A stretch of 64,000 nucleotides of DNA from the NCBI RefSeq assembly GCF_001517935.1, contig NZ_LOQF01000001.1:124001-188000 (forward strand), written 5' to 3'. The notes under the pieces were generated by a model, which was not told where the DNA came from, ran no database searches, and was given only the letters and a program-made list of their open reading frames with translations. Numbering within the stretch: position 1 is the stretch's first letter; every line of letters starts with the position of its first letter. Position numbers and translations under genes: made by a program. This DNA is from Sneathia sanguinegens (GTDB taxonomy: Bacteria > Fusobacteriota > Fusobacteriia > Fusobacteriales > Leptotrichiaceae). Positions 10,816 through 44,716 of the stretch are shown piece by piece.

Positions 10816-12606
10816 ATGAAGAATAAAAGAATATGGACAAAATTAGCAACAGTACTTTTGCTTGGGTCTTTAGTAGCATGTCAACCAGGTAAAAGAAGAT
10901 CAGAAATGGGAAGTAAAAATTTAAAATTATTATTCCCACAAATTTATGAATCAAAAGAAAAAGAAATTAAGGGTGGAACTTTTAAGGTAGGTGTTACAAG
11001 CTCAACATCATTTAGTGGTTTACTTAGTCCTTTAATTCAAACTACTGCATTAGATGGAGAATTTAGCGGACCAATAGACGCTCCACTTTTTGTGCCAGGA
11101 AAGGATTTCAAGGTTAGTGATAAAGGACTTGCTAAAATTGATGTAGATGTCGATAATAAAGTAGTTACAGTGACATTAAGACCTAATTTGAAGTGGGATG
11201 ACGGTCAACCTATGACTATAGATGACTATATCTTCACTTATGAAGTAGTAGCACACCCTGATTATACAGGTGTTAGATATGATGAAAGTGTTCAACAAGT
11301 AAATGGTATAAAAGATTATCATGAAGGTAAGGCAAAAACTATTAGTGGTTTAGAAAAAGTAAATGATACAACTGTTAAAATACACTTTAATAAATTAAGT
11401 CCTGCTGTATATAATGGTGGTGGAGGTCTATTATCTTTCATAGCACCTAAGCACGATTTAAAAGATGTGCCAGTTAAAGATTTAGAAAAATCTGAAAAGA
11501 CAAGATTAAAAGTTGTTGGTGCAGGACAATATAAGATAAAACAAATAGTTCCTGGTGAAAGTATAGAATATGTACCAAATGAATATTACTATAAGAAAGA
11601 TGAAATACCAAAAGTTGATAGCTTAATTAAAAAAATATTGCCAGATAATGCATTATTATCATCAATGAAAAATGGTGAATATGATGAATATTCTAGTGTT
11701 CCTTCAGATCTATATCAAGAATATAAAGACTTTAATAATTTGGTTGTTTTAGGAAGACCACAATTAGGATACTCATATTTAGGTTTCGATTTAGGACATT
11801 GGGATGCTAAAAAAGGAGAAAATGTAACAGATCCAGATAAAAAGATGGCAGATATTAATTTAAGAAAAGCTATGGGATATGCTTTGAATGTAGAAGAAGT
11901 AATAAATAGTTTCTATAGTGGTCTAAAGACAAGAGCAACTGGAGTTATACCACCTGTATTTGAAAGTATATATAATTCAAAACCAAGCATAACATACAAT
12001 GTTAAAAAGGCTAATGAATTATTAGACAAGGCTGGATATAAAGATGTAAATGGAGATGGAATAAGAGAAGATAAGAATGGAAAACCATTAGAAATAATAT
12101 TTGGTATGACAGCAAGTGGAGATATTGCAGAACCATTAACACAAAAATTCATACAAGACTGGAGAAAAGTAGGATTGAAGGTTAGCCTTGCAGGAGGTCG
12201 TTTACTTGAATCTAATAGTTTCTTTGAAAAATTACAATCAAATAATAAAGGCTTCGATATTTGGATGGCAGGTTGGTCAGTAGCAAGTTCTCTAGATTTA
12301 AATGGAATATATGGAAATCATTCTAAGTTCAATATTGCTAATCTTGCATCAGCAAGAAATAATGAATTAATTGATAAAGTAAATTCATTAGAAGCATTAA
12401 AAGATCCTGAATATAGATTAAATGCTATTAAGGAATGGGAAAATAACTACATGGAAAATGAATTAGGATTCTTACCACTATGGTTTAGTTATGAATTATT
12501 CCCAATTAATAAGAGAGTTAAATTTGAAACTTGTAAGTATGATAATACTGATTTGGGTCCACATCCAACAGCAGTAACTTCACAACAAACTTTGATGGCT
12601 AAATAG
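10816..12606 (+). CDS. Oligopeptide ABC transporter substrate-binding lipoprotein, copy 1
   Basis: Family 5 (OppA/DppA) extracellular solute-binding protein of 596 residues, anchored through the lipobox LVAC near residues 19-22. Typical blocks are LKWDDGQPMTIDDYIFTYE, GAGQYKIKQIVPGESIEYVPN, NLRKAMGYAL and FDIWMAGW. DVNGDGIREDKNG is a calcium-loop-like motif also found in other OppA proteins. A second, very similar gene lies at 22494-24272. No permease or ATPase gene is adjacent to either, so both probably serve a transporter encoded elsewhere. A strong terminator follows. Confidence 0.92.
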   Translation: MKNKRIWTKLATVLLLGSLVACQPGKRRSEMGSKNLKLLFPQIYESKEKEIKGGTFKVGVTSSTSFSGLLSPLIQTTALDGEFSGPIDAPLFVPGKDFKVSDKGLAKIDVDVDNKVVTVTLRPNLKWDDGQPMTIDDYIFTYEVVAHPDYTGVRYDESVQQVNGIKDYHEGKAKTISGLEKVNDTTVKIHFNKLSPAVYNGGGGLLSFIAPKHDLKDVPVKDLEKSEKTRLKVVGAGQYKIKQIVPGESIEYVPNEYYYKKDEIPKVDSLIKKILPDNALLSSMKNGEYDEYSSVPSDLYQEYKDFNNLVVLGRPQLGYSYLGFDLGHWDAKKGENVTDPDKKMADINLRKAMGYALNVEEVINSFYSGLKTRATGVIPPVFESIYNSKPSITYNVKKANELLDKAGYKDVNGDGIREDKNGKPLEIIFGMTASGDIAEPLTQKFIQDWRKVGLKVSLAGGRLLESNSFFEKLQSNNKGFDIWMAGWSVASSLDLNGIYGNHSKFNIANLASARNNELIDKVNSLEALKDPEYRLNAIKEWENNYMENELGFLPLWFSYELFPINKRVKFETCKYDNTDLGPHPTAVTSQQTLMAK

Positions 12607-12616
12607 TAAATATAAC

Positions 12617-12643
12617 GGTAGTTCGAAAGAACTACCTTTTATT
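12617..12643 (+). terminator. Terminator after oligopeptide lipoprotein copy 1
   Basis: A perfect 8-bp stem GGTAGTTC/GAACTACC with a GAAA tetraloop is followed by TTTTATTT. Classic rho-independent terminator. Confidence 0.93.
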
Positions 12644-12773: not shown

Positions 12774-12782
12774 TGATATAAT
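12774..12782 (+). promoter_or_regulatory. Extended -10 promoter of the coiled-coil outer-membrane protein
   Basis: TGATATAAT (TGn plus consensus -10) ends about 32 bases before the start codon at 12815; the -35 is weak. The same extended -10 occurs before rpe. Confidence 0.6.
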
Positions 12783-12814
12783 TTGTTGATTTTCACAAAA
12801 AAAGGAGAACTATG

Positions 12815-15031
12815 ATGAAAAAAACTATGATATTATCAATTTTTATAGCTTCTACACTATATGCAAGTACAGAAGGAATGGTAGAAGCGTTTAATATTAA
12901 TGAATACAACATAAACACGAATACATTTAAGTCTAAGAAAACTGGAATTAATGCAGAGTTTGGTGCTGCAGGTTTTAGAATAGGAACTAATTTAGTAGCT
13001 AAAAATAATTTTACAGAATTCAAATCGAGTACAGCCTATGTTCAATATACAACACCAAGATATATGGGTGTTAATGCGAGGATAAGAAGTAAATATTCAT
13101 TTGAAACTCAATTAGAACTAAATACAAAATTAAGCTATATGCCTAAAAATGACTTGGAAATAAGTTTAGAAAGTACGATAAATCCTACAGTTAATGGTAA
13201 GGACTTAAAATATAAAAATATACTTACTGAAAAATCAGAAAGTATAGATTATAAGGCAATATCACATGCATATAAATTAGAAACAAAATATAAGAATGAA
13301 AATGTTGAATTCATAGCAGACCTTCTATTTCAACACATATACTCAAAACACACTGAAGAAAAAACAGATAAAATAAAGCAATTAGAAGATAGAATAAATA
13401 TGCTAGAAAAAGTTGTTCCTTTACTAGAAAAAAAGAAAGAGTTAAGCGATAAAGTAACTGAATTAGAAAATAAATTGAAGATTGCAAATAATGCTTCGCA
13501 AGCAAAAAAAGATATAGATGACAAAATTAATAAAATTAATACTGAATATGAAAAACAAAAACAAGATCAAGAATCTCAAGTAAATGAAATAAAGCAAAAA
13601 TTACAACAAGCAGAAACTGAAAAAAAAGAAAAAGAAACTAAACAAGAACAAGCAGAAAAAGAATTAGATAAGAAAAAGCAAGAATTAAATATAAATAAAT
13701 TAGAACAAGATTTAGCTAATGCACAAAGAGAAGAAACAGAAGCAAAAACTGCAAAAGAACAAGCAGAACAAGAATATAGTTCTTTAGAAAAAGAAAAAGA
13801 AAATATTGAAAATCAAAAACAAGAAATAGAAGAAAAAATACAAGCTAATGAAACAGAAAAGAAAAAAATAGAAGAAGCAAAAAAAGCTTTAGATGAAATA
13901 AATAGAAAATTTGATGAAGAAGAAAAAAGGCTTAATGACATATCCGAAGATAATAATAGAAGTAAAGAAGAAAGAGAAAAAGCAAATAGGGATAGATATA
14001 AATTGATAGGAAAACACCATGAAGATTTAGCAAAAATTGGAGAAATTGACGGAAAATTAATGAGAAACGAAGAAACATCTAAATCATTAAAAAAAGATCA
14101 AGAACAAATAGTAAGACAGATAGAAGAAAAAAAAGAACAATTAAAAATTAAATTGCAAAATAAAGAGCAAAAAGAACAAGAGCATGAAGATAAAGAAAAA
14201 GAAAAAATAAAAAAACAACAAGAAATTCAAACTAAAAGACAAGAACTAACAGAAAAACAAAATGAATATGAAACTGCAAAACAACAGTTTGAACAAGCTG
14301 AAGAGAACTATGATTCTAAAAATAATGAGTTGAATGCTTTACAACAAGATATGGAAGTTAAAGAAAGAGAACATGAAGCTCAAATACAAAAATTAAATAA
14401 AGATAAAGCAGATGTAGAAGAGGATTTCAATAAAAAAGATCAACTTAGTTCTGAACTTGCTGAAAAGAAAAAAGAAGTTGAAGTTAATAAGGCAGAAATT
14501 GAAAAGGTGGATAAAAATAACTTGACTTTAGAAAAAGCTAAAGCTGAGAAAGAAGATAAATTGAAAAATAAGGATAAAATTATAGAACATCATAAGGTAA
14601 ATCCTTATAAAGTTGTTTCTAATGAATTTTATTTTGGAACTAAATTGGGACTTAAGTATAAAAAGAATGATTTTGGATTTGAAGGTAATTTAATTGCTGG
14701 TGGTGCATATAAGGAAAAAGAAAAGGATGATGAGAGAGTTATTGAAATGTATGCTCTTTCTAAACTTGAATTAGCGATGAATTATAGAGTTGCTGTTGCA
14801 CCTTTCCTATACTTAATACCCGAAGTTGGCGGAATGGTTAAGGTTGATGAGGTAGACTTTAAGAAAATTCCTGAAATTGAGTATAATATAAGTCCTAAGG
14901 TTGCTATTGAATACAAGCCTATAGATAAGTTTACATTTAGGGTAGAAGCTGATGTTAAAAATAGCTTTAAAAATAAAAACTATATTGACAGTGTAGTTAA
15001 TACAAATTTAAATATTAAATATGTTTGGTAG
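12815..15031 (+). CDS. Outer-membrane-type protein with a ~415-residue coiled coil inserted between beta regions
   Basis: I do not recognise a named family. The start at 12815 is preferred to the ATG three bases earlier because GGAG lies 7 bases upstream of it. The 738 residues begin with a signal peptide (MKKTMILSIFIASTLYAS). Residues about 19-179 are beta-rich with alternating patterns (FGAAGFRIGTNLVAK, FETQLELNTKLSYM). About 180-594 are charged, Q/E/K-rich heptad-like helix with almost no proline or aromatic residues. About 596-738 return to amphipathic strands (FYFGTKLGLKY, FRVEADVKNSF) and end in LNIKYVW, an outer-membrane beta-signal-like terminus. Inference: a barrel from which a long helical hairpin protrudes. 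It is a single-gene unit with its own promoter and terminator. A periplasm-spanning role is an alternative. Confidence 0.75.
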   Translation: MKKTMILSIFIASTLYASTEGMVEAFNINEYNINTNTFKSKKTGINAEFGAAGFRIGTNLVAKNNFTEFKSSTAYVQYTTPRYMGVNARIRSKYSFETQLELNTKLSYMPKNDLEISLESTINPTVNGKDLKYKNILTEKSESIDYKAISHAYKLETKYKNENVEFIADLLFQHIYSKHTEEKTDKIKQLEDRINMLEKVVPLLEKKKELSDKVTELENKLKIANNASQAKKDIDDKINKINTEYEKQKQDQESQVNEIKQKLQQAETEKKEKETKQEQAEKELDKKKQELNINKLEQDLANAQREETEAKTAKEQAEQEYSSLEKEKENIENQKQEIEEKIQANETEKKKIEEAKKALDEINRKFDEEEKRLNDISEDNNRSKEEREKANRDRYKLIGKHHEDLAKIGEIDGKLMRNEETSKSLKKDQEQIVRQIEEKKEQLKIKLQNKEQKEQEHEDKEKEKIKKQQEIQTKRQELTEKQNEYETAKQQFEQAEENYDSKNNELNALQQDMEVKEREHEAQIQKLNKDKADVEEDFNKKDQLSSELAEKKKEVEVNKAEIEKVDKNNLTLEKAKAEKEDKLKNKDKIIEHHKVNPYKVVSNEFYFGTKLGLKYKKNDFGFEGNLIAGGAYKEKEKDDERVIEMYALSKLELAMNYRVAVAPFLYLIPEVGGMVKVDEVDFKKIPEIEYNISPKVAIEYKPIDKFTFRVEADVKNSFKNKNYIDSVVNTNLNIKYVW

Positions 15032-15035
15032 AAAG

Positions 15036-15058
15036 AAGATGCCTTTGGCATCTTTTTT
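15036..15058 (+). terminator. Terminator after the coiled-coil protein
   Basis: AAGATGCC/GGCATCTT 8-bp stem with a TTT loop and a following T tract. Confidence 0.92.
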
Positions 15059-19208: not shown

Positions 19209-19856
19209 ATGAAAAATTATTTGGTCATTGGTTTAGGTAAATTTGGAAGAGCTATAGCTAAAACTTTATATGAAAATGGTAATGTTGTATTAGCATTAGA
19301 TTCTAATGAAGAATTAGTACAAAAAATATTAGATGAGGGTATAGTAGAAGATGCTATAACTCTTAATGCAACTGATGAAAATGCATTGAAAAATATAGTA
19401 AAAGATAGTTTTGATGGAGCTTTTGTTTGTATAGGGAATAATATACAAGATAGTATTTTGGTAACTTTGATGTTAAAAGAATTAAATATGAAAAATATTA
19501 TTTGTAAGGCTGAAACAAAAATCCAAGGAAAGGTTTTGGAAAAATTAGGTGCTGATAGGGTAGTTTATCCAGAAGAGCTAATAGGTGAAAAAATTGCATA
19601 TTCAATTATGAGACCATCAGTAATAGAATATTTTAAATTTTCTGATGAATATTCTATTGTAGAAATAAAAGTTCCTAAGAACTTTGTTGGAAAAACATTG
19701 GTTGAATTGAATTTAAGACATAGATTTTCAGCTAATGTTATAGCTATAAAGAATGCAGATGAAATGAAAACACCTAGTCCAGAATATGTATTCAAAGAAA
19801 GTGATACTGTTCTAGTTCTAGGGAAATTAAATGATATGGGAGAATTAGTAAAATGA
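19209..19856 (+). CDS. ktrA: KtrA/TrkA-type potassium uptake regulatory subunit
   Basis: RCK protein that gates KtrB. The N-terminal Rossmann fold begins with [16 protein letters not shown] (GxGxxG), and a C-terminal TrkA_C/RCK_C region starts about residue 135. The 215 residues match a single-RCK KtrA. Its stop overlaps the mnmG start as ATGA. Confidence 0.94.
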
Positions 19857-21742
19857 AAGAATATGATGTAATTGTTGTTGGTGCAGGACATGCTGGTATA
19901 GAAGCAGCTCTTGCTTGTGCAAGATTAGGTCAAAAAACAGCAATGTTTACAATAAGATTAGATAATATTGGAGAAATGTCTTGTAATCCATCTATAGGGG
20001 GACCTGCTAAAAGTCATTTGGTAAAAGAAATAGATGCTCTTGGTGGAGAAATGGCTAAGAATATGGATAAAAGTTTTATTCAAATGAGAATATTAAATAC
20101 TAAAAAAGGACCAGCAGTTAGATCACTTAGAGCACAAACAGATAGAAAAGTTTATGCTAATAATATGAAAAAAACGGTAGAAAAGCAAGAAAATTTGGAT
20201 ATAATTCAGGATATAGTTACAAAAATTCTAACTGAAAATAAAGTGATAAAGGGTATAGAAACTAAAAATGGTTTAATATTTAAGACAAAGAAATTAATTT
20301 TATCAACAGGGACCTTTTTAAATGGTTTGCTATATGTTGGAGATAAAATTTTAGAAGGTGGAAGAATGGGTGAACTTAGTGCTAAAGATTTAACTAAGTC
20401 ATTAATAGAATTAGGTCTTGAAGTTAGAAGATTTAAAACTGGAACTTCACCTCGTATTGATGGTAGAACAATAAACTTTGATATTCTTGAAGAACAACCT
20501 GGAGAAAAAGGAAAGGCACTAAAATTCTCTTTTTCATCAAAAGATGAAGATATTTTAGAAAGAAAACAATTATCTTGCTATATTACAAGAACAAGTGAAA
20601 AAACACATGAGGTAATATTAAATAATCTTGATAAAGCACCTATGTATAATGGAACTATACATAGTACAGGACCTAGATATTGCCCATCAATAGAAGATAA
20701 AGTTGTTAGATTCAGTGACAAGGACTCACATCACCTATTTTTAGAACCAGAAGGTTTTGATACAACAGAAGTATATATCAGTGGTTTATCAACAAGTTTT
20801 CCAGCAAGTTACCAACAAGATATGGTTAATTCTATAAAAGGAATGGAAAACGCTAAAATAATGAGATATGGTTATGCAGTAGAATATGACTTTGTATCAG
20901 CCCAAGAATTAGACTATACCTTAGAAACAAGAAAGGTTAAGGGTCTATATTTAGCAGGGCAAATAAATGGTACCAGTGGATATGAAGAAGCTGCAGCCCA
21001 AGGTTTAATGGCTGGAATTAATGCAAGTTTAGCTTTAATGAATAGAGAACCTTTGATACTTTATCGTAATAGTTCATATATTGCAACTATGATAGATGAT
21101 TTGATTAATAAAAGAATAGAAGAACCTTATAGAATGTTTACAGCTAGATCAGAGTATAGATTGATACTAAGAGAAGATAATGCAGATTTAAGACTTTCAA
21201 AATATGGATATGAAGTAGGTTTAGTGGATGAAAAAACTTATGCAAAAGTATTAGAAAAGGAAAAAATTGTAAAAGAAGTAATAGAATTTTTAGATAAAAC
21301 AAATGTAGGTATAAGTAATATAACCTTTGCTAAATTACTGGAAAAATATGAAGAAAGTTCTAAAAGTGGTGTAACATTAAAAGAATTTTTAAGAAGACCT
21401 AAGGTTAGCTATCAAGATATAAAGGATATAGTAAAAGAAATGAATGTAGACTATAACCTAGATTTTCGTGATGATATAGAATATCAAATTGAAGTTACTG
21501 TAAAATATGAAGGATATATAAAAAAAGCAGCTCAAATGATAGAAAAGGCTAAAAAATTTGATGAATGGAAAATACCAAAAGATTTCAATTATGATGCAAT
21601 GAAGGGAATAACAGGAGAAGCCAAGCAAAAATTAAAAGAAAAGAAACCATATAATTTGGGACAAGCAGCTAATATTTTAGGTGTAACACCAGCAGATATA
21701 GCAGTATTGATAATGTATTTAGATGGTAGGTTAAAATGTTAA
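19853..21742 (+). CDS. mnmG: tRNA uridine-5-carboxymethylaminomethyl modification enzyme MnmG (full length)
   Basis: With MnmE it installs cmnm5/nm5 at U34 of tRNAs that read split codon boxes. The 629 residues are canonical: the FAD-binding [84 protein letters not shown] and the C-terminal [16 protein letters not shown] helix. It is followed by rsmG with a 7-base overlap, the classical gidA-gidB order. A diverged second copy occupies the start of the window. Confidence 0.97.
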
Positions 21743-22493: not shown

Positions 22494-24272
22494 ATGAAGG
22501 TATCCAAAATAATTATGAGTATAATGTGTATTTCAGCTTTTTTTTCTTGTCAACCAGGGCAAAAAAAATCTGCTAAAGCTGAAAAGGTAAATTTACTATT
22601 TCCACAAACATGGGAATCTAAAGAAAAAGCAATTAAAGGAGGAACATATAAGGTAGCGGTAGTTAGTCAATCACCTTTTATGGGACTTTTTAATGAAATT
22701 TTAGCTAATTCAGTAGTAGATACTGCATTTTTAGACCCTATAAGTGCACCTTTATTTACAACAGGTAAGGATTTTATAGCAGATGATAGAGGACTTGCAA
22801 AAATAGATATAGATGTAGATAATAAAATAGTTACTGTAACTTTAAGAAATAATTTGAAATGGGAAGATGGTCAACCAATGACTATAGATGACTATATATT
22901 TACTTATGAATGTATAGGAAATCCTGATTATACAGGTGTTAGATATGATTCAGGTTTAGAACAAATCAAAGGTATGAAAGAATTTCATGAAGGTAAGGCA
23001 AAAACTATAAGTGGATTGGAAAAAGTAAATGACAATGTAGTTAAGATACATTTCTATGAATTAAGTCCAACTATTCGTACTTTAGGTGGAGGTATTTTTA
23101 CTTCAATAATTCCAAAACATTATTTAGCAGATGTTCCGGTTAAGGATTTAGAAAAATCTGATAAAGTAAGATTACATCCAATTGGAGCAGGGCCTTGGAA
23201 GATTAAACAAATAATACCAGGTGAAAGTGTTGAATATGTACCAAACGAAAATTATTATAAACCAAATAATATACCTAAGGTAGACAAAATGATAATGAAG
23301 ATATTACCAGACAATTCATTATTATCATCAATGAAAAATGGAGAATTTGATTATTATAAACAAGCAGGTACAGCACTTTATAGTGAATATAAAGATTTGA
23401 ATAATTTGGTTGTTTTAGGAAGACCTCAATTATCATATTCATATTTAGGATTCAATTTAGGACATTGGGATGCTAAAAAAGGAGAAAATGTAACAGATCC
23501 TAATAAGAAAATGGCAGATATTAATTTAAGAAAAGCAATGGGTTATGCAGTTAATTTAGAAGAAATTGCAACAAGCTTTTTCAATGGATTACAAACTAGA
23601 GCTACAGGTGTAATACCACCAGCTTTTGAAACTCTATATACACCTAAGGAAAGATTTAAATATAGTCCTGAAAAAGCTAATGAATTATTGGATAAAGCAG
23701 GATATAAAGATGTAGATGGAGATGGAATAAGAGAAGATAAAAATGGAAAACCACTTGAAATATTCTTAGCTTTCCCTGCAAGTGGTGATATTGCAGAACC
23801 ATTATCACAAAAATATATACAAGATTGGAGAAAAGTAGGTTTAAAGGTTTCACTTACAGGTGGAAGATTAATTGAAGGTAATTCATTCTTTGATTTACTT
23901 GATAGTAATTCAGATAGTTATGATATTTGGTTAGCAGGTTGGTCAGTTGGAACTTCAATGGATATTAATGGATTATACGCAAGAAATGCAAAATTCAATA
24001 TGTCTAGAATAACTTCAAAAAGAAATGATGAATTAATGGCAAAAGTTAATTCAACACAAAGTTTGAAAGATCCTGAATATAAAGCAAAAGCTTTAAGGGA
24101 ATGGGAAGATAATTATATGGAAAATGAACTAGGATTTTTACCATTATTATTTAGATATGAATTATTCCCAGTTAATAAGAGGGTAAAATTTAGTAGTATT
24201 GTCTATGATGATTCAAATATTAAGGATGTACCATTAGAATTAACATCACCAGAACCTTATAGACAAAAATAA
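22494..24272 (+). CDS. Oligopeptide ABC transporter substrate-binding lipoprotein, copy 2
   Basis: Family 5 solute-binding protein of 592 residues with signal peptide and lipobox (FFSC, then QPGQKKS). It is closely related along its length to the protein at 10816-12606; the QPMTIDDYIFTYE, AKTISGLEKVND and GHWDAKKGENVTDP blocks are identical in both. It keeps the calcium-loop-like DVDGDGIREDKNG. It has its own strong promoter and no adjacent permease genes. The differences from copy 1 cluster in the N-terminal lobe and near the C-terminus, so the two may differ in peptide preference; that is inference. Confidence 0.92.
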   Translation: MKVSKIIMSIMCISAFFSCQPGQKKSAKAEKVNLLFPQTWESKEKAIKGGTYKVAVVSQSPFMGLFNEILANSVVDTAFLDPISAPLFTTGKDFIADDRGLAKIDIDVDNKIVTVTLRNNLKWEDGQPMTIDDYIFTYECIGNPDYTGVRYDSGLEQIKGMKEFHEGKAKTISGLEKVNDNVVKIHFYELSPTIRTLGGGIFTSIIPKHYLADVPVKDLEKSDKVRLHPIGAGPWKIKQIIPGESVEYVPNENYYKPNNIPKVDKMIMKILPDNSLLSSMKNGEFDYYKQAGTALYSEYKDLNNLVVLGRPQLSYSYLGFNLGHWDAKKGENVTDPNKKMADINLRKAMGYAVNLEEIATSFFNGLQTRATGVIPPAFETLYTPKERFKYSPEKANELLDKAGYKDVDGDGIREDKNGKPLEIFLAFPASGDIAEPLSQKYIQDWRKVGLKVSLTGGRLIEGNSFFDLLDSNSDSYDIWLAGWSVGTSMDINGLYARNAKFNMSRITSKRNDELMAKVNSTQSLKDPEYKAKALREWEDNYMENELGFLPLLFRYELFPVNKRVKFSSIVYDDSNIKDVPLELTSPEPYRQK

Positions 24273-40344: not shown

Positions 40345-43155
40345 ATGAAAAGAAAAATGTTACTTATGCTTCTTTTGGCAACATTTAATAATTTTGCTAA
40401 AGAAGTTGATGTGAAAATAAGAATAGGGACACAAGCGAGTTTTGGAATAGAAGGTTTAGATATTAATGTAGACAAAGAAAAGACTTTTAAAATGTTTTTA
40501 CCTAGAGAAAATATATATGGAGAAGAAAAAAGTGATAATATAAATAAATTTGCAAGAAAGATACAAAATTTGACTGTAGAAGAGCCAAAAGCTCAGGCAA
40601 CAAGTTTTAGTAATGAAGGTAAAGCAAAAGATTTAATGAAGGAAATAGTTAAAAGAGGAGCTATTATAGATGTGCCATCTGTAGATATTGAATTTGATAT
40701 TCATAGGATAAAAACAAAGCTTGGGGCAAAATTAAGAGCTAATAGTTTAACATTCCGTAATAAAAAATATGAGCCAGGAATTCAAAAGGCTTTTATTTAT
40801 TCAAATACAGATACAGAACATTTTAAAATGTTAAATAAGCTATATATTAAAGGTTATGATAAGAAAAGTATAGGTTTTGATAAATATAGAGAACTTGAAG
40901 ATATAAGTGGCAAAGATGTTATGGAATTTGAAAGTGCTGGTAAAGTAAGAGCAACAAAAGGCTATATAAGACCAGAATTAGCATATGTTACGAGTTTATC
41001 AAATAAAAAAAGAGAAATCTTTATAGCGCCTAGCTTGGAAGTGGATGTTATAAATAATAAAGATAGACAATTAACTGTAAGTGCTAATTATCATTTTTCT
41101 AATCAAGCAAAAGATAAATTTAATATGGAAGAAATAAGAAAAGATGTTGAAGATTTTGCACCAGGAAATACGGAAGTTGACTATTTTAAAAAATGGGAGC
41201 TTGGAAAAATAAGAGATATAGAAAAAGGAGAGTTAAATGGTAAAAAAGGTTCTATTAGATCAATTAATTTACCAACTGGAACTCTTTATGGAAAAAATTT
41301 GATGGAATATTCAATTAATTTAGCCTATAAATCACTTATTCAAGAATTAGGTGAAGCTGGAACTAAAATGGAGAAGTTACTTAATAAAATACAGGATAAT
41401 AAACAAAATGGCAAATTAACTTTAGATGATATTAAAGAACTGTCAGTATATAAGGATCAATATAGTATGTTAAGTTCTAAGTTTAAAGATAATGAAAGCG
41501 TCATTAAATTTATATCTCCTTTTGTTGAAAAAGCTCTATATGAATTTGGTATGAAAAAGGAAGAAGAAGTTTCTAATTTCCATATTTCAAACTATATCCC
41601 AGATAATTATATGGAATATTTAAAATTTCTAAAAAAAGAAGTTAAAAATCAAGTTGCTAAACCACAAAATGTAACTATGGAACAATTAACTATAAAGAAA
41701 AAAATGACAATAGCAGATGATATAGATTTCATTTTCCCAGAAAAAGAATTAGAAGATGTAGGGAAGATAATAGGGTCAACAAAAATTCTAAAAAGTGTAG
41801 ATAAAATAGGTGGACTTATAGAAAAATTTAAAACTCCTTTAGAAAAATTATCAGAAGCAAAAAATAATTATGATAAAGTTAAGGCTGAATATGATAGTAA
41901 AAAATGTAGCAGTTTTTGGGATTGGGGTTGTAAAATTGATAAGGGTTTTCTTTTCGCAAAATTAGGTATAGAAGCTTTAGAAGTTGGAAATAAATTACTT
42001 GATGTTAGAAAAATTGTAGATGATAATAAGAAAGAAATACTTGAAGTATTAGATGATGGTATAGCTACTTTAAAAAAATTCGATGATAATAGTGAAAAAG
42101 TAAAAAAATCTATAAAAAATCTAGAAGATAGAAAAAAAGATATAGAAAATCTTGTGCATCTTGCTGCTCTAGAATGGTCTAAAATAAGATTTACAGAATT
42201 ATATTCAAATTTTAATAATTTAAAAAATATGGATGAAACATATATTAAGCCAATAAATGAAATAGTTCAAGAAAGAGGAACAAATATAGTTAAAAAAGCC
42301 TCTAATATAGTTATTCATCCAGAAAAAGTAGAAAATTTTGATATGTTTTCTGGTATTCAAATTTTAAAAACAGAGCATGATGTTAAGAAAAAAGAATATT
42401 ATGAAAAAATGAATAAAGAGGTTTTATCTAAAATTGATAAGGACTTCAGCGGTATAGTTCATGGTATGAATTTAAATTTTTTCTATAATGACAACATAGC
42501 TGAATTTTATACAAATTTGAATATAGATATTAATTCATTTAAGAAAAATATTAATAGTTTGAATAAATATTCAATTGTAGCAGATTTTGCATATGAACCT
42601 AGTTCACTTGATTTTAAAGCAAAAACAGCATTATCATATAAAGATTTTAAACTTGCTGAATTGAAATATGGTAAATTAAATATAGAAACTAATGTGCTAG
42701 CAAAATTAAAGTTAATAAGTAATAATAAAAAGTGGTTATTTAAACCAGGTATAGAATATATTGGTGAATTTGAGTATTTAAATTTAGAAAATTCACCTGT
42801 AGAAGTTGAAATATATAAGAGAAAAGATAATAAATTAGTAAAAAAAGCTAATTCAGAACTTACAAGCTCTGAAGAATTTAATAAATTGGAAAAAGGAGCA
42901 GCTGTAGATATTAATAAATATTCAAAATACTTATTTAAAGAAGGTTTTGATAAATACTTTGAAATGGAAAAATCTAAAGGTCAAAGTAGATGGTTGACAC
43001 CTATACATACTTTTATACCTACAGTTGAAATATTATATAGCCCTACAAAAAATGTAGAAATAGACTATAATTTTATCTTACCTATAAGAATAAAAAAAGA
43101 AAAGATAGAAGGAGTTATGGTCAAAAATGGCTTAGGAATAACTTTGAAATTTTAA
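40345..43155 (+). CDS. Large exported, probably outer-membrane-associated protein with central helical region
   Basis: No family recognised. It begins with a signal peptide (MKRKMLLMLLLATFNNFAKE) behind TAGGAGG. Residues about 20-300 are mixed beta (VDVKIRIGTQASFGIEG, AGKVRATKGYIRPELAYV). About 330-690 are largely helical and charged, including a Cys521-x7-Cys529 pair that could form a disulfide outside the cytosol. From about 690 amphipathic strands return (GMNLNFFYNDNIAEFYTNLNID, FKAKTALSYKDFKLAELKYG), ending in GLGITLKF with a terminal Phe as in outer-membrane barrels. It has its own promoter, and the next gene converges on it. A surface or barrel role is inferred. Confidence 0.65.
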   Translation: MKRKMLLMLLLATFNNFAKEVDVKIRIGTQASFGIEGLDINVDKEKTFKMFLPRENIYGEEKSDNINKFARKIQNLTVEEPKAQATSFSNEGKAKDLMKEIVKRGAIIDVPSVDIEFDIHRIKTKLGAKLRANSLTFRNKKYEPGIQKAFIYSNTDTEHFKMLNKLYIKGYDKKSIGFDKYRELEDISGKDVMEFESAGKVRATKGYIRPELAYVTSLSNKKREIFIAPSLEVDVINNKDRQLTVSANYHFSNQAKDKFNMEEIRKDVEDFAPGNTEVDYFKKWELGKIRDIEKGELNGKKGSIRSINLPTGTLYGKNLMEYSINLAYKSLIQELGEAGTKMEKLLNKIQDNKQNGKLTLDDIKELSVYKDQYSMLSSKFKDNESVIKFISPFVEKALYEFGMKKEEEVSNFHISNYIPDNYMEYLKFLKKEVKNQVAKPQNVTMEQLTIKKKMTIADDIDFIFPEKELEDVGKIIGSTKILKSVDKIGGLIEKFKTPLEKLSEAKNNYDKVKAEYDSKKCSSFWDWGCKIDKGFLFAKLGIEALEVGNKLLDVRKIVDDNKKEILEVLDDGIATLKKFDDNSEKVKKSIKNLEDRKKDIENLVHLAALEWSKIRFTELYSNFNNLKNMDETYIKPINEIVQERGTNIVKKASNIVIHPEKVENFDMFSGIQILKTEHDVKKKEYYEKMNKEVLSKIDKDFSGIVHGMNLNFFYNDNIAEFYTNLNIDINSFKKNINSLNKYSIVADFAYEPSSLDFKAKTALSYKDFKLAELKYGKLNIETNVLAKLKLISNNKKWLFKPGIEYIGEFEYLNLENSPVEVEIYKRKDNKLVKKANSELTSSEEFNKLEKGAAVDINKYSKYLFKEGFDKYFEMEKSKGQSRWLTPIHTFIPTVEILYSPTKNVEIDYNFILPIRIKKEKIEGVMVKNGLGITLKF

Positions 43156-43219: not shown

Positions 43220-44716
43220 CTACCATTTGTATTCTATATTTAATTTTGCTTTTACTGAAGTTGATTTGTAACCTAATTTTTGTCCATTTTCTTTGATTGT
43301 ATTATTTTCTTCTACATAATTATTAATTTTACCAAGTTCTACTGGAAATTCAACAGAACCTTTAAGAGTTAAATCTGATGTTGCTGCATACTCAGAACTT
43401 ATTTTTGGTGTTAAAGTTAATTGTTCTAAATTAACTACTTCATTTGTTTTAACTATAGCTTTGAATTCAGGAGTTACAGTTAAATTATTTGTTACAAATA
43501 ATTTTGCTTCAGAACCTAAAGCATAATATTCTGAATTTGTGTATTTCTTTTTATCATTTTCATTTTCTTTTTCTTCATCTATATCTATTTTTGTTTGTCT
43601 TGCAATTTTAGCAGTAGCTGTTAATTCAAAAATATCACTTACATAACCTACAGCAACTTTAGTACCATAAATGATTGCATCTGAAGATTTTCTAAAGTCT
43701 TTCTTTTCTTTAGGGTCATTAGAATTTCCTAAAATATTCCAAATATTACTAAGTAAATTATTTTGAGCCACTGGAACAGGTAATCCTAAATGTGCAAAGA
43801 ATGGACTAAATACAAATTTTGCATTTTTTAAACCTGTATATGTAGCATTAAAGTTGTAATCATGCATGAAATTACCATTGAATTCTTGGAATAATTTTTC
43901 ATCTTCATGTTTGAATTCTAATTTAGTATCAGAAAAATTAAATTTGAAATTAGCATTAGCATTCAAATCAAGACCTTCAACCTTGTTGTATTTTACCTTA
44001 GCACTACCTGAAACAAATTTGATTCCTTTTTTTAAGACTTCTTTAACATCTACTGTTCCATCTTGAGCAACATTAATTTTATTGTAAGTATTAGCTATCT
44101 TTACTTCTGCATTAACATCATTTAGTACTGATATTTCATTTGAAGTTACATATACCTTATGTTCAGATTCTATAGTTGAACCAAAATCATTAGTTTCTGT
44201 ATAAACTACAGGTAAAGTAGTGTTAGAAGTTAAACCTATTTTAACACCATTAACATTATAATTTATATCTCCTTCAAAATTAACTTTATTTAAATTTTTA
44301 TAAGTAAGTTTAAGGTAAGAATTTACATCATTCATTTGTGGTAATTCATATTTAGCCCAAGCATTTACATCGTTTAATATTTCAGTTAATTTCTTATTTT
44401 CAGGTTCTAGTTGACCATTACTATTTTTCTTATCAGTGAATATAACTAAATCTTTAGCCTTAAAAGTTCCACCAAAACTAAGACCAGTATCCTTAAGAGT
44501 TATTTCAGTTGAAACTGAAACATTTTCTATTGTTGCAGTATGAGTGTTTGTAGTTTTTAAAGTGCCATTACTAAATAATGAAATAGTAGGCTTATTTAAT
44601 TCAGTTTTTGTTGAAAAGTCTGCCTTAGCATTAGATTCAAATGTAAGCTTTCCTGTAGTACCAGCTGCAATTGCTGTAGCTGTTATTAAGCTAGCTAATA
44701 AAAATGATTTTTTCAT
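43220..44716 (-). CDS. Outer-membrane beta-barrel-like protein ending in LNIEYKW
   Basis: No named family recognised. A signal peptide (MKKSFLLASLITATAIAAG) precedes a 498-residue, beta-rich, Asn/Thr/Lys-rich sequence with alternating hydrophobic patterns (VNFEGDINYNVNGVKIGLTSN, LTVTPEFKAIVKTNEVV, LTLKGSVEFPVELGKI). The C-terminus KAKLNIEYKW resembles LNIKYVW of the coiled-coil protein at 12815-15031, which suggests recognition by the same outer-membrane assembly machinery. It is a single-gene unit. Residues about 340-400 contain a charged insertion (EEKENENDKKK). Confidence 0.7.
   Translation of the reverse strand: MKKSFLLASLITATAIAAGTTGKLTFESNAKADFSTKTELNKPTISLFSNGTLKTTNTHTATIENVSVSTEITLKDTGLSFGGTFKAKDLVIFTDKKNSNGQLEPENKKLTEILNDVNAWAKYELPQMNDVNSYLKLTYKNLNKVNFEGDINYNVNGVKIGLTSNTTLPVVYTETNDFGSTIESEHKVYVTSNEISVLNDVNAEVKIANTYNKINVAQDGTVDVKEVLKKGIKFVSGSAKVKYNKVEGLDLNANANFKFNFSDTKLEFKHEDEKLFQEFNGNFMHDYNFNATYTGLKNAKFVFSPFFAHLGLPVPVAQNNLLSNIWNILGNSNDPKEKKDFRKSSDAIIYGTKVAVGYVSDIFELTATAKIARQTKIDIDEEKENENDKKKYTNSEYYALGSEAKLFVTNNLTVTPEFKAIVKTNEVVNLEQLTLTPKISSEYAATSDLTLKGSVEFPVELGKINNYVEENNTIKENGQKLGYKSTSVKAKLNIEYKW

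Follow-up and report, generated by a model that had tools for sequence, protein, structure and literature searches.

Within the window, the whole stretch of 64,000 nucleotides that was analysed, an open reading frame at 12815-15031 on the forward strand encodes a protein of 738 amino acids (an alternative ATG lies at 12812), which begins with a signal peptide at residues 1-18, MKKTMILSIFIASTLYA, followed by ST, and ends in LNIKYVW, the aromatic-terminated last strand of a predicted barrel. The source genome measures 1.29 Mb at about 27% GC, and its gene content and relatives place it in the Leptotrichiaceae (Fusobacteriota). The features of the locus, together with a paralogue elsewhere in the window, are the following.

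12617-12636, forward strand: terminator-like hairpin of the upstream gene, separating the oligopeptide-binding lipoprotein gene at 10816-12606 from the reading frame
12777-12782, forward strand: TATAAT, by its position a candidate -10 element of the gene's own promoter
12804-12807, forward strand: GGAG ribosome-binding site 5' of the reading frame, read directly in the sequence
12815-12868, forward strand: signal peptide, residues 1-18, without a lipobox (sequence, AlphaFold2)
12872-13357, forward strand: predicted N-terminal barrel half, strands 1-9, residues 20-181 (AlphaFold2 with pLDDT blocks of 82-98, family alignment, profile homology)
13364-14599, forward strand: predicted coiled-coil hairpin, residues 184-595, in the strand 9/10 loop, extracellular loop 5 (periodicity, AlphaFold2, turn lengths)
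13949-13963, forward strand: predicted tip of the hairpin, residues 379-383, within NDISEDNNRSKEER (both AlphaFold2 models break the helix here)
14606-15028, forward strand: predicted C-terminal barrel half, strands 10-16, residues 598-738 (AlphaFold2, profile search)
15037-15058, forward strand: terminator-like hairpin AGATGCC-TTT-GGCATCT and then a T run, read directly and missed by the terminator scan
43220-44716, reverse strand: coil-free paralogue of 498 amino acids with a homologous loop of 37 amino acids, ending LNIEYKW (profile searches, family alignment)

With terminator-like hairpins on both sides and a TATAAT element of its own, the reading frame appears to be a single-gene unit. 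It adjoins rpe, on the 5' side of that gene; the genome of the sister species (G001, a single contig of 1.33 Mb) keeps the order rpe-marR-fbpA with no barrel-family gene before rpe, so that this copy looks lineage-specific. Elsewhere in the window the oligopeptide-binding lipoprotein is encoded by two close paralogues (10816-12606 and 22494-24272), each beside unrelated neighbours, and mnmG-like tRNA modification genes are present in two copies (19853-21742 and 80-1303, the latter possibly starting before the window), both in this one window of a reduced genome.

The layout that the initial annotation had read from the letters proved accurate to the residue: there is a signal peptide, a beta part of 160 residues, a coil of about 412, a second beta part of 143 and the terminal LNIKYVW. 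The helical part (184-595) comprises about 412 residues, 50% of them D, E, K or R, with one proline and three glycines and, between residues 186 and 592, no cysteine. Its hydrophobic residues recur with a 3.5-residue periodicity at a windowed power of 3.81, far above the values from 2000 shuffles (mean 1.02, maximum 2.11; z = 9.9 for the observed value), and the coiled coil is on this ground real and not an artefact of composition. AlphaFold2 places helices at 184-378 and 384-595, with small breaks and with a turn at 379-383 near the middle, where a hairpin would have it. The ascending arm has about 195 residues and the descending arm 212; with 0.15 nm to each residue, the predicted hairpin extends about 29 nm. 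With the alignment described below (A5) its pLDDT is 44-93, and no folded head domain is predicted on it. Foldseek matches the hairpin to Rad50 chains in the PDB (7zr1); SMC sequence matches in the Pfam and NCBIfam scans were compositional and were set aside.

From four sequences only, AlphaFold2 left the barrel, including the C part, unresolved. Alignment A5 has 42 rows, made up of 12 full-length long-loop members and, from the coil-free members, N and C fragments, and is shallow, the family being small and known mostly from two genomes; MAFFT L-INS-i with full-length coil-free members misplaced strands 6-9, a placement that E-INS-i or the use of fragments corrected. With A5 the mean pLDDT rises to 82, and ten-residue blocks of the beta parts reach 82-98, most of them above 90. 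Nine strands are predicted before the coil (20-32, 37-51, 54-63, 73-79, 86-95, 99-111, 114-124, 148-160 and 164-181) and seven after it (598-617, 620-637, 640-657, 659/665-680, 687-703, 706-719 and 722-737), 16 in all. The pTM, at 0.53, is what a flexible mast would lead one to expect and does not fix the angle between hairpin and barrel. Foldseek against the PDB matches the model to the porins CymA, OccK/Opd, OmpG and MOMP, with E values from 8e-8 (CymA) to 4e-5, in alignments of about 750 columns or more against single-chain porin targets of 280-400 residues; this length means that one barrel is matched by both beta parts jointly, the coiled coil being spanned as a gap. Closure of the barrel, with strand 1 against strand 16, is suggested by the match that Foldseek found and by the even number of strands.

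The protein belongs to a paralogous family. Searched with a profile of the C part, its own genome (G000) gives 16 matches and that of the sister species 21; with the N-part profile the numbers are 13 and 18, respectively. A few members are present in further Leptotrichiaceae genera (genomes G004, G007 and G013); elsewhere among 96 genomes of the order only marginal single matches were found. Neither Pfam nor NCBIfam holds a convincing model for the barrel family, Pfam gives no family at E <= 1 for the whole 738-aa protein or for either beta part, and a PDB sequence search with the 738-aa protein returned no relative.

In all 25 members that could be anchored, the loop is preceded by a common motif, typically ..LxQH(I/V).. 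in long-coil members, and followed by (Y/F)G..(L)..Y. This QH-loop measures 9-37 residues in 13 of the 25, which are coil-free, and 147-311 in eight; it is longest in the remaining four, at 429 (the 738-aa protein), 460, 463 and 506 residues. In the 738-aa protein the family profile is matched by the N part before the QH-loop and by the C part after it. A search profile built from four long-coil proteins only also recovers both parts in coil-free members, at 9e-8 (N part) and 1e-8 (C part) for L013, 3e-12 and 2e-6 for L080_8255, and 3e-6 and 9e-10 for L015. The coil-free homologues thus carry both beta parts in the same order in one uninterrupted chain, and long-coil and coil-free paralogues occur together in one genome.

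These comparisons bear on whether the beta parts might instead form two distinct domains, say a soluble one at the N-terminus and an anchor at the C-terminus, linked by the coil in the manner of an autotransporter or a trimeric adhesin. The failure of the first, four-sequence AlphaFold2 run to resolve the C part would fit such an arrangement; the full family alignment, however, yields high-confidence predictions for both parts, which jointly match one porin, the coil-free homologues join them directly, and no YadA-anchor or autotransporter match was found. Two separate beta domains were rejected on the joint porin match and the coil-free homologues, and the idea now seems scarcely credible. 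A coil that leaves and re-enters the same barrel, as initially proposed, agrees with the nine plus seven strands predicted at high confidence and with the joint porin match, and where homologues with unrelated, separately encoded beta parts had been named as the observation that would count against it, the opposite was found, both parts lying in one chain. Structure prediction and sequence comparison together support the protein as one barrel interrupted by a coiled-coil hairpin.

Several further members and one other protein deserve mention. A member of the sister species (L016:5510-7474, reverse strand), which begins with GTG, has a QH-loop of nine residues; its coiled coil, about 250 residues long, sits instead in the loop joining strands 5 and 6, on the side of the predicted barrel that also bears the strand 9/10 insert. 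Three copies in the sister species appear broken (L014:2994-4067, L014:4663-7354 and L087 near 1993), one being truncated, one split over two frames and one disturbed in its start region, and intact copies of the family lie next to them. In the window, an exported protein of 936 amino acids (40345-43155, forward strand) has apparent beta-rich ends and a long helical middle, ends in GLGITLKF and matches no Pfam family; two more relatives are present in the same genome and others in G001 and G004, and it possibly represents a second, unrelated interrupted-barrel family.

The side of the membrane to which the hairpin points was approached through the standard deviation (SD) of turn and loop lengths, in residues, across 28 family members. 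In bacterial barrels the periplasmic turns are as a rule short and constant, and the extracellular loops long and variable. The turns that follow even strands (2/3, 4/5 and so on to 14/15), seven in number, are all near-constant, with SD values of 0.2-1.4, and all eight loops after odd strands are variable, with SD values of 6-168, both coiled-coil positions among them; at position 7/8 part of the variation is one of strand number, both long-loop and coil-free members having extra strands there. With 16 strands and both termini periplasmic, the loop after strand 9 is extracellular, and the insert does lie on the variable side with the constant turns opposite, so that the predicted hairpin most likely stands outside the cell. 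A periplasmic hairpin, serving as an envelope-spanning strut or tether in the manner of the TolC helices, is on these grounds quite improbable. At about 29 nm the hairpin would be long enough to cross the periplasm, and helices of the TolC type are established to hang from the periplasmic end of their barrel; yet BAM-assembled barrels have both termini in the periplasm, so that an insert after an odd strand, here 9 of 16, lies outside, the seven turns on the side of the termini are short and constant and the insert side variable, the distal part is the most variable in a set of close paralogues (L012, below), and Pfam gives no OEP match. Among the roles suggested at the outset, adhesin and spacer are compatible with this outward orientation, and the envelope-spanning strut is disfavoured by it; the interruption of a single barrel by a hairpin gains from the same test, which places the insert on the variable, extracellular side.

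Variation within the stalk can be followed in three tandem long-coil members on another contig (L012:8749-16185), which share the layout of the 738-aa protein. Genes a and b are 84.5% identical in DNA over the N part of the barrel and 94.9% over the C part; barrel-proximal windows of the stalk retain about 70-90% identity, and distal windows fall to about 40-54%. Genes b and c are about 85% identical throughout, stalk included, with no tip-swap pattern, and the distal stalk of gene a is unrelated to those of b and c. Protein identity per segment agrees with the DNA pattern. A replaced distal stalk above a conserved barrel and stalk base would be expected of an exposed end that undergoes diversifying selection or is recombined as a cassette; for this, the one comparison is suggestive and falls short of proof. 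A TnpB-like, transposon-type gene lies directly upstream of the trio (L012:6637-7776).

Expression of the family may also be switched in the sister species. Seven of its family promoters carry a tract of T13-T19 directly 5' of TAAAATATACTTGAC; wherever the start codon is unambiguous, the tract lies 75-81 bases 5' of the ATG (G001:C1 sites 62915, 67568, 83266, 85008, 882264, 1100867 and 1109147; example loci are L014:2916, L014:7569 and L013:5148). The combined pattern is confined to these seven sites in G001 and is absent from G000, and from sequence these are candidate phase-variable promoters. The T13-T19 promoter tract is absent at 12815-15031, where a search for homopolymer-tract switching found no long tract, only an A8 about 68 bases upstream.

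Taken together, these observations make it probable that the 738-aa protein is a 16-stranded, monomer-type outer-membrane barrel whose loop 5 has grown into an outward, antiparallel coiled-coil surface mast of about 29 nm; the best reading of its origin is loop expansion, and of its role an adhesin or a variable antigen. A signal peptide followed by assembly through the BAM machinery is the established route of biogenesis for outer-membrane barrels, and the 738-aa protein would be exported through its Sec signal peptide and its barrel assembled by BAM. The hairpin, to judge from barrel biogenesis, would cross the membrane through the nascent barrel as a loop with both ends tethered, fold outside into a stiff two-helix mast and lead back into the same barrel. 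The distal stalk may then bind host or partner cells, present a changing antigen, or both, with the conserved barrel as its base. Up to the topology these steps rest on prediction and comparison; export and function, and with them the binding function, export route, oligomeric state and pore activity of the 738-aa protein, we only infer.

The strongest rival on function sees in the barrel a working porin that passes small solutes, and in the hairpin a shield, antigenic or steric, that acts as a decoy against antibodies, complement or phages and not as an adhesin. It is consistent with the match of the barrel fold to the substrate porins CymA, OccK and OmpG, with the coexistence of coil-free and coil-bearing paralogues in one genome, with a variable stalk on a conserved barrel, and with the candidate phase-variable promoters of several sister-species members. 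A shield has, however, no obvious need for a two-helix geometry of 29 nm, and porin activity is itself a prediction from the fold, so that we regard the shield as unlikely, though deserving of serious weight, and retain a surface mast serving as adhesin or variable antigen as the preferred reading.

A broader proposal, put forward tentatively and with somewhat less than even confidence, is that the family constitutes a type V-like display class in the Fusobacteriota, in which the passenger is a doubly anchored loop whose length is elastic between 9 and about 500 residues and whose position differs among the extracellular loops from one paralogue to another, with masts of up to about 35 nm that grow or are swapped and are probably switched on and off in the sister species. 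This would require the barrel assembly machinery to export hairpins of more than 400 residues while closing a 16-strand barrel, and one homologous loop ranging from 9 to 506 residues provides a natural length series for the limit of loop export by BAM. The family accounts for about 1.9% of the reduced 1.29 Mb genome (13 genes, 24 kb), and if its members are displayed as predicted, the main variable surface layer of this emerging urogenital pathogen may well consist of them.

By sequence comparison the family is found in a few Leptotrichiaceae genera, and it is previously unnamed. The searched text of two Sneathia genome papers treats adhesion through autotransporter and Hia/YadA types only and, in those portions, mentions no such family, coiled coils or paralogues; in the open-access literature searched, nothing combining a coiled-coil hairpin, an extracellular loop, a beta-barrel and the outer membrane was found.

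Several known systems share parts of this architecture. The trimeric autotransporter adhesins YadA and Hia (type Vc) also carry a coiled-coil stalk outside on a barrel, but that barrel is C-terminal only, built from a four-strand anchor and common to three chains, whereas the 738-aa protein is a single chain with strands on both sides. TolC and the outer membrane efflux proteins likewise extend long helices from a barrel chain, but their helices are periplasmic and their barrel is common to three chains, and the 738-aa protein has no match to the family. Both identities were rejected by layout, and the distinction drawn from them in the initial annotation was borne out by the nine strands predicted before the coil and seven after it with no anchor match, and by the lack of a TolC family match with the insert on the predicted extracellular side. 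The monomeric porins CymA, OccK/OpdK, OmpG and Campylobacter MOMP have the same single-chain barrel fold according to Foldseek, at only 4-6% identity and without a coiled-coil loop; their strand numbers are 14 or 18, unlike the predicted 16. Within the same phylum, FadA of Fusobacterium is an alpha-helical hairpin adhesin (PMC13432900). FadA is small and filament-forming and has no barrel, and the 738-aa protein has no match to its Pfam family.

The nearest known kind is that of the Helicobacter Hop adhesins, as an interrupted barrel without homology. The barrel of these adhesins is reportedly interrupted, according to a study from 2018. BabA, SabA, HopQ and LabA likewise form a multigene family in whose architecture a helical extracellular domain interrupts the barrel, and they show no sequence relationship to the 738-aa protein (no Pfam match). 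In BabA and LabA an antiparallel two-helix coiled-coil handle leads to the barrel (PMC4643811, PMC8244420). In the Hop proteins the insert is placed close to the N-terminus, ahead of a barrel that is C-terminal, and bears a disulfide-clasped head, whereas that of the 738-aa protein follows strand 9 of a predicted 16 and is one long hairpin without cysteines or a folded head; and, unlike in the Hop adhesins, the length of the loop in the Leptotrichiaceae ranges from 9 to 506 residues within one family.
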